Shown here piece by piece: positions 4,414 to 9,890 of a stretch of 64,000 nt of DNA. The notes below the pieces were generated by a model. The model saw only the letters and a program-made list of their open reading frames with translations. It ran no database searches and had not been told where the DNA came from. How positions within the stretch are numbered: the first letter of the stretch is position 1; each line of letters starts with the position of its first letter. Made by a program: the position numbers and the translations under genes. This DNA is from Xenophilus sp. Marseille-Q4582 (lineage in GTDB: Bacteria; Pseudomonadota; Gammaproteobacteria; Burkholderiales; Burkholderiaceae_C), in assembly GCF_916700565.1 (NCBI RefSeq), contig NZ_CAKAKO010000002.1, forward strand, positions 62,001-126,000, in the 5' to 3' direction.

Positions 4414-5898
4414 CTACTCCAGCCCGAACGCGAACACCGCGCCGGCACCGGGCCGGGGCACCAGGCGGATGTCGCTGCCGTGCAGCTGCAGGATGCGCCG
4501 CACGATCATCAGCCCCAGTCCGCCGCCGCGCTCGCCGCGCGTGGCGAAGGCCGGCCGCGTGAAGATCACGGGCTGCAGCGCGTCGGGGATGCCCGGCCCC
4601 GTGTCGGCCACCTCCACCTGCACGCCGGCGCGGCCGCTGCCTGCCGCAGTCTGCAGCCGCACCGTGATCACGCCGCCCTCGGGCGTGTGGCGGATCGCGT
4701 TGTCCAGCAGGTTGGTGAGCACGCGTTCGATCATGGCCAGGTCGGCGGTCACGCCCGGCAGGCCGGGCGCTATGTCGGCCACCAGGCGCTGGCGGCGCGC
4801 CTCGGCGGCCAGCTCGAACTTCTGGAACAGGTCCTGCACCAGATCGGCCAGCGCGAAGCGCTCCTTCTCGGGCTGCACCACGCCGTACTCCAGCCGCGCG
4901 AGTTCGAACAGCTCCTGCGCCAGCCGGCCGACCTTGCGGCTCTGGCCCAGCGCGATGTCCAGGTAGCGGCGGCGCTCGTCGGCGTCCAGCTGTTCGGCCT
5001 TCATGCGCAGCGTCTCCAGGTAGCCGTGCAGCGACGTGAGCGGCGTGCGCAGGTCGTGCGAGATGTTGGCGAACAGCTCGCGCCGCTGCTGGTCCTGCGC
5101 CGTGAGTTCCTGCCACTGCGCGTCGATGCGCCGCGCCATGCGCTCGAAGGCCTGGCCCAGCACGCCGATCTCGTCCTGCCCGCGCGCCACGGCCTGCAGC
5201 GCCGGGGCCGTGCGGCCGAAGGCCGCCACGCCCTCGCGCTCGAAGTCCTGCACCGCGCCCGTGAGCTGCCGCAGCGGCCGCGTGATGGAGCGGAAAGCCA
5301 CCAGGCCGGCGACCAGCCCCAGCAGGGCCACCAGCGCCGTCGCCCACAGCGTGATGCGCAGGGCCGAACCCGCGGCGATGTGCGCGTTCAGCGCGTCGCG
5401 CTCCTCGCCCGACAGCACCACGTACACATAGCCCGCGTCGCGCCCGTCCACGCGCAGCGGTGCGGCGCTGAACACCTTGCCCCCGCCCTGGCTGCCAGGA
5501 GGCATGCGCGGGTCGTCGCCCAGCACCGGCAGCGCCGCGCCGGCCAGCAGGCGATGCACCGGCGCCAGGTCCACACGGTCCTGCTTCAGGTGCCCGGGCG
5601 GCGCGGCCTGGGCCACGATGCGGCCCGCCGGGTCGAGCAGGTAGACCTCGACGCTGGGGTTCACGGCCATCAGCATGTCGAACAGGCGGCGCACCGCCAT
5701 CGGGTCCAGGCCCTGCGGGCGCATCAGCTCGGCATGGCCGGCGATGTGCGCGGCCAGGCCCAGCGACAGGCGCTGCGTCACCTCGCGTTCCTGCCGCTCG
5801 CTGGCCGCCATCTGCAGCCAGGCCGACACGCCCGAGCAGGCCAGCAGCAGCACCGCGAACACCAGCGACAGGCGGCGCGAGAGCGTCCAGGCCTTCAT
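4414..5898 (-). CDS. Sensor histidine kinase
   Basis: A 494-residue membrane kinase. The chosen start MKAWTLSRR overlaps the regulator stop by four bases (ATGA), showing translational coupling. Layout: transmembrane helix about 10-28, periplasmic sensor about 30-182, second helix about 183-203, HAMP linker about 204-260, HisKA box with FANISHDLRTPLTS (phosphoacceptor His281), then HATPase with N- and G-boxes (LLDNAIRHTPEGG, DTGPGIPD, GGGLGLMIV). The periplasmic loop holds several methionines (59, 67, 75, 77, 132), which is worth noting because the divergent operon handles methionine oxidation and the E. coli HOCl sensor HprS is thought to sense through such residues; that parallel is inference. 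Confidence 0.93.
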   Translation of the reverse strand: MKAWTLSRRLSLVFAVLLLACSGVSAWLQMAASERQEREVTQRLSLGLAAHIAGHAELMRPQGLDPMAVRRLFDMLMAVNPSVEVYLLDPAGRIVAQAAPPGHLKQDRVDLAPVHRLLAGAALPVLGDDPRMPPGSQGGGKVFSAAPLRVDGRDAGYVYVVLSGEERDALNAHIAAGSALRITLWATALVALLGLVAGLVAFRSITRPLRQLTGAVQDFEREGVAAFGRTAPALQAVARGQDEIGVLGQAFERMARRIDAQWQELTAQDQQRRELFANISHDLRTPLTSLHGYLETLRMKAEQLDADERRRYLDIALGQSRKVGRLAQELFELARLEYGVVQPEKERFALADLVQDLFQKFELAAEARRQRLVADIAPGLPGVTADLAMIERVLTNLLDNAIRHTPEGGVITVRLQTAAGSGRAGVQVEVADTGPGIPDALQPVIFTRPAFATRGERGGGLGLMIVRRILQLHGSDIRLVPRPGAGAVFAFGLE

Positions 5899-6662
5899 GG
5901 CGGCGGCTCCGTGGCCGCGTCCACAGGGGCGGCCTCGCCCTCGGCGCCAGTGCCCGCCACCAGCCGGTAGCCGCGCCCCCACACGGTGAGGATGCGGCGC
6001 GGCGCGCCGGGGTCGGCTTCCACCTTGGTGCGCAGCCGGTTGATGTGGGTGTTGACGGTGTGCTCGTAGCCGTCGTGCTGGTAGCCCCAGACCTTGTCGA
6101 GCAGCTCCAGCCGCGAGAACACGCGGCCCGGGTGCCGGGCGAAGAAGTGCAGCAGGTCGAACTCGCGCGGCGTCAGGTCGATGGCGCGCCCCTCGACCCA
6201 GGCCTCGCGCGTGACCGGGTCCAGCGCCAGCTGGCCCACCTCCAGCCGGCCGGCCTCCACGCGCGCGCTGCGCGCCATGGCCTCGCTGCGCCGCAGCAGC
6301 GCGCGCACGCGCGCCACCAGTTCCAGCACCGAGAAGGGTTTTGCCAGGTAGTCGTCAGCGCCCAGCTCCAGGCCCAGGATGCGGTGCACCTCGCTGGAAC
6401 GCGCGCTGGTGATGATGATGGGCGTGTAGCGCCCCACGGCGCTGTGGGCGCGCGCGGCGCGGCAGATCTCCAGCCCGTCCACGCCGGGCAGCATGAGGTC
6501 CAGCACCAGCGCATCCCACGGTCCGCGCGCCAGGGCCTGCAGGCCGGCATGGCCGTCGGCCGCGTGGGTGACGGCATAGCCCTCGTCGGCCAGGTGCATG
6601 CGCATCAGTTCGGCGATATGGGCTTCGTCCTCGACGATCAGCACGCGCTTGGGGGTGTCCAT
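5895..6662 (-). CDS. OmpR-family response regulator
   Basis: A 255-residue two-domain regulator, start MDTPKRVLIVEDE at 6662. The receiver domain (residues 5-118) carries acidic residues ED at 11-12, the phosphoacceptor Asp55 in LVLDLMLPG, and a conserved Lys in AKPFSVLEL. The C-terminal winged helix (about 150-240) has LTPREFDLLHFFARHPG and GYEHTVNTHINRLRTKVE, the OmpR/PhoB signature. It heads the regulator-kinase operon and is transcribed away from the cytochrome/molybdoenzyme operon, with 98 bases between the two starts, so it probably controls that operon and itself. This matches the E. coli layout in which hprRS (yedVW) sits beside msrPQ (yedYZ). Confidence 0.93.
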   Translation of the reverse strand: MDTPKRVLIVEDEAHIAELMRMHLADEGYAVTHAADGHAGLQALARGPWDALVLDLMLPGVDGLEICRAARAHSAVGRYTPIIITSARSSEVHRILGLELGADDYLAKPFSVLELVARVRALLRRSEAMARSARVEAGRLEVGQLALDPVTREAWVEGRAIDLTPREFDLLHFFARHPGRVFSRLELLDKVWGYQHDGYEHTVNTHINRLRTKVEADPGAPRRILTVWGRGYRLVAGTGAEGEAAPVDAATEPPP

Positions 6663-6699
6663 GGGGCCGGATTGTGGGCCGAAGCCGGCGCCCGAGTTG

Positions 6700-8610: not shown

Positions 8611-9357
8611 ATGAACCCTCTGACCGACACACGCCGTGCCCCAGGCCCCTCGCGCCGACACGCGGTCGCCACCCTCGCACTGGCACTGGGCGGCGGCCTG
8701 GTGGCCTGGAAGGCACTGCCTGCGCGGGCCGCCTCTGCGGCCGGCGAGGCCGTGCGCCTGCCGCCGCCCCAGGATGGCGGTGCCCTCCTGAGCGGCGCCT
8801 CCAGTGCCGGCTCCGACACCGCCGTGCTGGCCGGCGGCTGCTTCTGGGGCGTGCAGGGCGTGTACCAGCACGTCAGGGGCGTGACGGGCGCCGTGTCGGG
8901 CTACGCGGGTGGCGAGGCGCGCACGGCGAACTACGACGCCATCGGCTCGGGCCGCACCGGCCATGCCGAATCGGTGCGCATCCACTACGACCCGCGCGAA
9001 CTCAGCTTCGGCCAGTTGCTGCAGATCTACTTCTCGGTGGTGCACGACCCGACCCAGCTCAACCGCCAGGGGCCGGACGTGGGCACGCAGTACCGCTCTA
9101 CCATCTTCGCGCAGAACGCGCAGCAGGCCCGCATCGCCCAGCTCGAGCAGGCGCGCAGCTTCGGCGCGCCCATCGTCACCACCCTCGAGCGCGACAAACC
9201 CTTCTACGAAGCCGAGGCCTACCACCAGGACTACATGACGCGGAACCCGCGCCAGCCCTACATCGCCCTGCACGACCTGCCCAAGCGCGACAACCTGAAG
9301 CGCCTGTTCCCCGCGCTCTACCGCGAACAGCCGGTGCTGGTCCGGGCGCGCGGTTGA
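8611..9357 (+). CDS. msrA: Exported peptide-methionine (S)-S-oxide reductase MsrA
   Basis: MsrA reduces the S epimer of methionine sulfoxide in proteins. Start taken at ATG 8611 (MNPLTDTRR; a TTG at 8566 is possible), giving 248 residues. Unlike the usual cytosolic enzyme it has an N-terminal targeting segment, with SRRHAVATLALALGGGLVAW resembling a Tat signal and ending at LPARA. The catalytic motif GGCFWG follows at about residues 74-79, then GYAGG and GHAESVRIHYDP, all typical. It lies 51 bases after the methionine-repeat gene and 29 bases before msrB, so it is probably in the same transcript and acts in the periplasm. Confidence 0.93.
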   Translation: MNPLTDTRRAPGPSRRHAVATLALALGGGLVAWKALPARAASAAGEAVRLPPPQDGGALLSGASSAGSDTAVLAGGCFWGVQGVYQHVRGVTGAVSGYAGGEARTANYDAIGSGRTGHAESVRIHYDPRELSFGQLLQIYFSVVHDPTQLNRQGPDVGTQYRSTIFAQNAQQARIAQLEQARSFGAPIVTTLERDKPFYEAEAYHQDYMTRNPRQPYIALHDLPKRDNLKRLFPALYREQPVLVRARG

Positions 9358-9386
9358 GCGCGAACCCGCACGAGGAGCCCCTCCCC

Positions 9387-9890
9387 ATGACGCCACGCCG
9401 AGACTTCCTCCACACGCTGGGCGCCGGTGCCCTGCTGGCCGGGCCCGGCTGGGCCGCGCTGCTGCCCACCGCCCGCGCCGCCCAGACCTATGCCGTGACG
9501 CGCACCGAGGCCGAATGGCGGGCGCAGCTCACCCCCCAGCAGTACCAGGTGCTGCGCCAGGCGGGCACCGAGCGCCCCTACTCCAGCCCGCTCAACCACG
9601 AGAAGCGGGCCGGCACCTTCCACTGCGCGGGCTGCCAGCAGGCCCTGTTCTCGTCGGCCACCAAGTTCGACAGCGGCACCGGCTGGCCCAGCTTCTGGCG
9701 CGCCCTGCCCGAGGCGGTGGAAAAGAAGACCGACCGCAGCCACGGCATGGTGCGCGACGAGGTGCTGTGCACCCGCTGCGGCGGGCACCTGGGCCATGTC
9801 TTCGACGACGGGCCGCGGCCGACCGGGCTGCGCTATTGCATGAACGGGCTGGCGCTGGGATTCACACCGGGCGCGCCAGCCGCCGGCTGA
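9387..9890 (+). CDS. msrB: Exported peptide-methionine (R)-S-oxide reductase MsrB
   Basis: A 167-residue MsrB, which reduces the R epimer of methionine sulfoxide. The N-terminus TPRRDFLHTLGAGALLAG is a textbook twin-arginine signal, so the enzyme should be exported. Visible family marks: two zinc-binding CxxC pairs (CAGC and CTRC), FDSGTGWPSFW, GGHLGHVFDDGP, and RYCMNG with the catalytic Cys. It starts 29 bases after msrA with an AGGAG site and closes the operon; a stem-loop with a T-run lies about 140 bases downstream. The reductant for an exported MsrB (a periplasmic thioredoxin-like protein) is not encoded in this cluster. Confidence 0.94.
   Translation: MTPRRDFLHTLGAGALLAGPGWAALLPTARAAQTYAVTRTEAEWRAQLTPQQYQVLRQAGTERPYSSPLNHEKRAGTFHCAGCQQALFSSATKFDSGTGWPSFWRALPEAVEKKTDRSHGMVRDEVLCTRCGGHLGHVFDDGPRPTGLRYCMNGLALGFTPGAPAAG

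Follow-up and report, generated by a model that had tools for sequence, protein, structure and literature searches.

In the 64,000-nucleotide stretch of the Xenophilus sp. Marseille-Q4582 genome analyzed here (the window; the host genome comprises 5.5 Mb in 13 contigs), positions 4414–9890 hold a divergent gene island which, judging from its sequence and its relatives, is quite probably an OrhK/OrhR-type regulon for methionine repair in the cell envelope, gathered in one place. On the minus strand (6662–4414) lies a two-component pair assigned by Pfam: an OrhR-type response regulator of the OmpR/PhoB family (6662–5895) and an OrhK-type sensor histidine kinase with HisKA, HATPase and HAMP domains (5898–4414). 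The plus strand (6761–9890) encodes a prokaryotic cytochrome b561, putatively the electron carrier from quinol to the molybdoenzyme (6761–7423; PF01292, 98 bits), an MsrP-like molybdoenzyme predicted to be a lipoprotein exported by twin-arginine translocation (Tat) (7420–8220; PF00174, 114 bits), a Met-rich, MrpX-like MXKDX repeat peptide predicted to be exported (8323–8559; TIGR02953, 78.2 bits for a cut-off of 41), and the predicted exported sulfoxide reductases MsrA (8611–9357; PF01625, 175 bits) and MsrB (9387–9890; PF01641, 169 bits; Tat). This gene content and divergent layout had been proposed by an earlier, sequence-only reading of the DNA and are confirmed by the genes and their family matches. 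The Tat or Sec signals it saw on the molybdoenzyme, the MXKDX protein, MsrA and MsrB are likewise borne out by motifs and hydrophobic stretches in the N-termini, on which all export calls made here are based. The ATGA overlaps it reported occur between regulator and kinase genes (5895–5898) and between b561 and molybdoenzyme genes (7420–7423) only, the junctions molybdoenzyme/MXKDX, MXKDX/MsrA and MsrA/MsrB being gaps of 102, 51 and 29 bases.

The identity of the two-component pair is central to this assignment. In uropathogenic E. coli CFT073, OrhK/OrhR has been shown to respond to peroxide and to directly activate c3566 (a cytochrome b), c3567 (an MsrP-like protein) and c3568 (a Met-rich peptide) (PMC8550376). 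The island shares with that system the divergent pair and these three kinds of gene, and its proteins are 46% (kinase), 62% (regulator), 60% (b561) and 58% (molybdoenzyme) identical to those of an E. coli plasmid copy, which also possesses a Met-rich peptide. On a Rahnella plasmid the system consists of five genes, one of them annotated as encoding an MXKDX protein, and Pseudomonas orthologues are 58–61% (kinase) and 68–71% (regulator) identical. The window differs from the E. coli system in adding exported MsrA and MsrB, in the genes further downstream, and in a molybdoenzyme recognized as a likely lipoprotein. In the literature found, OrhK/OrhR is described only from uropathogenic E. coli; a 2026 review (PMC12846084) mentions it in connection with toxin control. 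No description of OrhK/OrhR control of exported MsrA or MsrB came up in the literature searched, which took in few subscription journals.

The earlier reading had instead likened the pair to HprRS. In E. coli K-12, the yedVW-msrPQ layout combines the HprRS two-component pair with a sulfite-oxidase-fold reductase and a membrane cytochrome, and this general layout is what would favor a plain HprRS-MsrPQ locus to which further genes had been added. Such an explanation is scarcely credible: with the HprR model NF008567, the regulator reaches 154 bits for a cut-off of 353, the cytochrome matches PF01292 and not PF01794, the ferric-reductase-like membrane domain of MsrQ, and a separate, canonical MsrP-MsrQ pair is found elsewhere in the same genome. 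The HprRS/MsrPQ identity was thus rejected, the pair being homologous to OrhK/OrhR instead. In the periplasmic domain of the kinase (approximately residues 28–186), Met77 is invariant in 42 of 42 aligned kinases, the E. coli type included. It is a possible oxidant-sensing residue, although only a lead, since 54 residue columns in this domain reach 95% conservation or more.

A second line of evidence is a candidate operator in the intergenic stretch between the divergent genes. At 6700–6724, the 25-base-pair element TCACGATTAATTGAACTTTCCGTGA, with arms TCACG and CGTGA, is the predicted binding site of the regulator; its consensus across loci is TCACGATTAATTGAACTTTGCGTGA. OrhR bound its promoter in an electrophoretic mobility shift assay, and the site proposed was TCACA-N15-TGTGA, an inverted repeat just upstream of the -35 region (PMC8550376). 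The geometry and the position are retained in the window (TCACG-N15-CGTGA), and the E. coli plasmid copy (TCACA-N15-CGTGA) departs from the published site by one arm base. The distribution of the element was examined in 81 loci, namely the window and 80 relatives, mainly Comamonadaceae, Achromobacter/Bordetella and Pseudomonas, which are the best 80 of at least 441 matches and lean to close kin. Scored as present at up to 5 mismatches of 25, it occurs in 53 loci: 32 with an adjacent pair, 20 from Pseudomonas and one (L054) whose contig ends inside the regulator. All 32 pair-bearing loci have it, which is not an independent test because the consensus was read from those loci; it is also found in 20 of the 21 Pseudomonas loci that lack an adjacent pair. 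The other 28 loci show at least 8 mismatches at best, and after mononucleotide shuffling, 25 loci showed 7 to 11. Twelve loci have a strong match to an extracytoplasmic function (ECF) sigma factor divergent upstream (at least 267 bits; 11 with NrsF too), and none of them carries the element. Weaker ECF-like matches occur at L073 (55.5 bits) and at the Pseudomonas locus L069, where the operator is present (28 bits).

Putative -10 boxes lie 23 nucleotides from the operator on either side, as read from the sequence: positions 6671–6676 on the minus strand for the regulator gene, and CACACT at 6748–6753 on the plus strand for the b561 operon, whose start codon follows 7 nucleotides further. On the operon side this spacing is the best right offset for a -10-like position among the 53 motif-bearing loci, and on the regulator side it is the second-best left offset among the 32 pair-bearing loci, just under one abutting the operator. 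With start codons only 7–8 nucleotides from the putative -10 boxes (6660–6763), both divergent transcripts of this lineage are possibly leaderless. A ribosome binding site has been deduced in E. coli (PMC8550376).

If the element is the site of the regulator, Pseudomonas genomes without an adjacent pair should hold the pair elsewhere. Eight of the 21 were searched, and all eight have one close kinase (58–61% identity) at another place. There the regulator gene points away from msrB and msrA, both for exported proteins, and the operator sits in the intergenic stretch. This second site departs from the 31-base form of the element by 4–6 mismatches, the next best being 12–15 on the same strand and 11–12 on the other. 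A pattern search at up to 3 mismatches found it in one of the eight genomes, and the other seven sites came to light when the sequence ahead of the pair was compared with the 31-base form.

A similar association is observed within the Burkholderiales. Among 300 genomes, the operator occurs at up to 2 mismatches in seven (a reversed-pattern control gave none), the host genome having a single such site. Scoring the five best candidates per genome, a kinase above 500 bits was found in 10 genomes, the next best reaching 333 bits. The operator is present in 7 of these 10 and in none of the 290 others (Fisher p 3e-12, the genomes being related and therefore not independent). Six of the sites lie in genomes other than the host and adjoin b561-molybdoenzyme genes (L124, L125), MsrB (L122, L123, L127) or MsrA (L126); the regulator gene is also adjacent at five of them, and in three (L123, L126, L127) pair and operator stand before MsrB or MsrA. 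Because the same operator and pair occur at both gene sets, molybdenum- and thiol-type reductases appear to share one regulon. A chance neighborhood, in which MsrA and MsrB were inserted beside an unrelated operon, would suit the varying order and presence of these genes among the loci; their recurrence behind the same pair and operator, in eight of eight searched Pseudomonas and in the three Burkholderiales loci just named, makes it highly improbable.

In Cupriavidus, the pair occurs with MsrB and MsrA, but the site is degenerate (9–10 mismatches). The 300 genomes also hold 16 weaker kinase relatives (39–46% identity); around the 15 that were examined, mostly over about 1.5 kb on each side, the best site had 11–16 mismatches of 31 and no partner gene was found. 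A Burkholderia pyrrocinia plasmid (L131) carries the pair with, before the regulator, a best site at 8 mismatches of 25 and no Msr, b561 or molybdoenzyme match within 11.5 kb around the pair, whose targets may lie elsewhere.

Turning to the effectors, the molybdoenzyme belongs by fold to the MsrP/YedY group, as far as a model of moderate quality allows. With the AlphaFold model (mean pLDDT, i.e., predicted local distance difference test score, of only 68), a fold search ranked E. coli YedY first (1xdy, E 2.8e-12), and by sequence the enzyme matches YedY better than solved sulfite oxidases or dehydrogenases. Its score for the SorA sulfite dehydrogenase model NF052245 is 46 bits for a cut-off of 600. 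Cys153, which aligns with CVEAWS of 1xdq (CVE.WS context) and is invariant in 38 sequences, is presumably the molybdenum ligand. In 38 of 38 aligned sequences, the E. coli and Rahnella copies among them, a twin-arginine motif precedes a lipobox, L-[ST]-G-C (its cysteine is Cys56 in the window enzyme), and the enzyme is therefore predicted to be a Tat lipoprotein. The lipobox suggests that it is held at a membrane, which bears on how it meets the cytochrome. The latter matches PF01292 as its only domain, and six His columns are invariant in the 49 sequences aligned, a twelve-column/six-His reading which covers 49 of 83 possible sequences, the others being shorter or interrupted matches. The sequence-only reading regarded a b561 cytochrome in place of MsrQ as unusual, whereas it is the rule: b561 stands upstream of the molybdoenzyme in 77 of the 81 loci, and in the other four (L026, L043, L066, L070) the contig ends there.

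From residue 24 onward, the MXKDX peptide has 11 Met in 55 residues at a constant spacing of 5, behind a Sec-like signal judged by eye; it is the only MXKDX match in the host genome, and, judged by a simple count criterion, 78 of the 80 relatives have a similar frame. Regularly spaced methionines can bind Cu(I), and the kinase reaches 129 bits against a heavy-metal sensor kinase model, below the cut-off of 293. It could thus be proposed that the peptide is mainly a copper or silver binder and that the locus answers metal stress. This is very unlikely, as the other operon members act, by family, on sulfoxides, and in E. coli the related system responds to peroxide (PMC8550376).

MsrA and MsrB, whose N-termini show twin-arginine motifs and hydrophobic stretches, look like one-cysteine enzymes. 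The MsrA domain of the window protein contains a single Cys, as do 42 of 43 examined, the exception being L028 with two, and the MsrB domain, with a G-T-G-W-P-S motif and five Cys, has Thr at the usual position of the resolving Cys of MsrB; the same Thr occurs in 12 other MsrB and in the 8 Pseudomonas proteins. The resolving cysteine of two-cysteine, thioredoxin-recycled enzymes was thus not found, and a fused, PilB-type exported MsrAB is ruled out by the two separate genes (8611–9357 and 9387–9890). As to a possible thiol donor, four of the eight Pseudomonas genomes have a DipZ-like gene flanked by msrB and msrA (L115, L117, L120, L121; family checked for two, where the DsbD_TM match is below cut-off), and partial DipZ-like matches of 60–64% identity follow MXKDX in six relatives (L006, L010, L012, L016, L018, L033). 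The host genome has one DsbD_TM match, elsewhere, and three MsrA and three MsrB matches in total. A second, apparently cytoplasmic sulfoxide cluster (L093; G000:C3:335000-354000) contains MsrA, SelO, a redoxin-like/MsrB fusion and a short PF00174 protein, together with what we take from their sequences to be a flavin-reductase-like protein and EgtB-like and EgtD-like genes. Downstream of the island, an AT-richer stretch with a hairpin (9891–10165) precedes a gene at 10166, named methyltransferase-like from its sequence; single-strand DNA folding of 9885–10060 gave a z of -1.66, and a search for a terminator in 8200–10200 reported none on the plus strand.

The arrangement of these genes varies among the relatives. 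The five-gene order of the window, MsrA before MsrB, does recur, although exactly in just 3 of the 81 loci, the window and two Pseudorhodoferax strains (L004, L005), whose molybdoenzymes are the closest relatives (82–83%) among the best 80 of at least 441. In eight further loci the effector genes are the same but MsrB precedes MsrA, and two of these (L027, L078) lack the pair; at L067 both Msr genes lie upstream. Bordetella genomosp. 2 (L035) has two copies of a b561-molybdoenzyme-MXKDX-MsrB array at a distance of about 4.8 kb, with frames from about 1553 and 6390.

Several related systems have been described under other regulators. Azospira suillum combines a Met-rich peptide with an MsrP-like reductase and a membrane cytochrome in SigF/NrsF-yedY1Z1-mrpX (PMC4623255; PMC5748585), under ECF sigma control rather than the two-component pair of the window, and no ECF or NrsF match is found beside the window operon. 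In Brucella melitensis, BcrXQP with BcrS/AbcS is induced by hypochlorous acid and comprises an MXKDX peptide and an MsrP/Q-like pair; it differs in its ECF control and, as described, is a three-gene operon without MsrA or MsrB (PMC8315932). The perchlorate islands of P. militaris MP and D. hydrogenophilus LT-1 place predicted exported MsrA and MsrB beside yedYZ and mrpX (PMC4623255). Although these belong to perchlorate reduction islands, exported MsrA and MsrB in this company had thus already been reported. In Haemophilus influenzae, the envelope oxidant regulator RpoE2 controls periplasmic, thiol-type MsrAB and also affects a second periplasmic reductase, MtsZ (PMC7907618), of the dimethyl sulfoxide reductase family (PMC7402097). 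It differs from the window in its ECF control, its single MsrAB protein and the fact that a Met-rich peptide is nowhere mentioned (PMC7907618). Given this precedent, regulating thiol and molybdenum reductases together is in itself no novelty, while an operator uniting these different repair enzymes under one control looks new. The methionine-redox reading first given to the island thus holds for an envelope unit whose three reductase types can share control, as indicated by the common operator and the link between two separated Pseudomonas operons; its HprRS analogy and the unusualness of b561 do not.

Several findings weigh against the assignment to an OrhK/OrhR-type methionine-repair regulon. 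MsrA is present in 34 and MsrB in 12 of the 81 neighborhoods and both are absent from most, so that, next to b561 as the normal partner, they are a frequent but inconstant addition. Twelve loci (L018, L027, L030, L032, L036, L037, L041, L063, L067, L071, L073, L078) have neither the pair, a strong ECF match nor the operator in the stretch fetched. Three of the 10 close-kinase Burkholderiales have no operator within 2 mismatches; in the stretch fetched around the pair, one has a degenerate site beside MsrB, one a half-site without partner gene and one neither. In genome G293, the operator is at MsrB and the kinase elsewhere; no element was seen at its pair (14 mismatches at best), which argues against self-regulation there. 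A search of the host genome for a full DipZ-like gene turned up no more than a partial match of 33% containing a stop. For the molybdoenzyme, the MsrP equivalog model NF003767 gives 77.2 bits for a cut-off of 207, and sulfite dehydrogenases come close behind YedY in the fold search.

The main doubt concerns the direction of the b561-molybdoenzyme pair, as a quinone-reducing direction has been proposed for a related enzyme pair, nSor, of Acidocella (PMC10715153). If this applied here, the pair would oxidize a periplasmic sulfur compound and reduce quinone, with the Msr enzymes as mere neighbors; the sulfite oxidase family fold of the modeled molybdoenzyme and the weak NCBIfam matches of the cytochrome to hydrogenase and formate dehydrogenase b subunits could be read in this sense. 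We consider it unlikely, because the E. coli homologs protect against tert-butyl hydroperoxide and are controlled by an oxidant-responsive pair (PMC8550376), because the Met-rich peptide accompanies the enzymes in nearly all relatives, because the operator is common with MsrA and MsrB genes, and because YedY outscores solved sulfite oxidases and dehydrogenases by sequence.

Under the favored envelope-repair reading, the following mechanism can be proposed. The kinase would sense an oxidant, peroxide or hypochlorous acid, outside the inner membrane, and the phosphorylated regulator would bind 6700–6724 and activate the operon and probably its own gene too. The exported MXKDX peptide would serve as a sacrificial sink of closely spaced methionines. 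Two routes would reduce the sulfoxides formed on it and on other envelope proteins, one leading from quinol through b561 to the lipid-anchored MsrP-like molybdoenzyme, the other from thiols to the exported one-cysteine enzymes, MsrA acting on the S form and MsrB on the R form. More broadly, we lean slightly towards the view that OrhK/OrhR, rather than being confined to the role of a pathogenicity-island regulator in E. coli, is widespread among environmental Proteobacteria as a switch dedicated to methionine redox in the envelope, in which one operator joins a quinol/b561/Tat-lipoprotein molybdoenzyme route and a thiol/DipZ-like/one-cysteine MsrB-MsrA route around one sacrificial peptide, the two halves being separate in Pseudomonas and joined in the lineage of the window, with a swap to ECF control possible.

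The core of the island is of a kind already known from E. coli, and what is added here is a regulon that takes in MsrA and MsrB, its operator, and the prediction that the molybdoenzyme is a lipoprotein. Close relatives of OrhK/OrhR are now placed in soil and plant bacteria, together with an exact DNA site that predicts their targets, and it becomes a testable question whether molybdenum- and thiol-based sulfoxide reductases serve the same sacrificial peptide.

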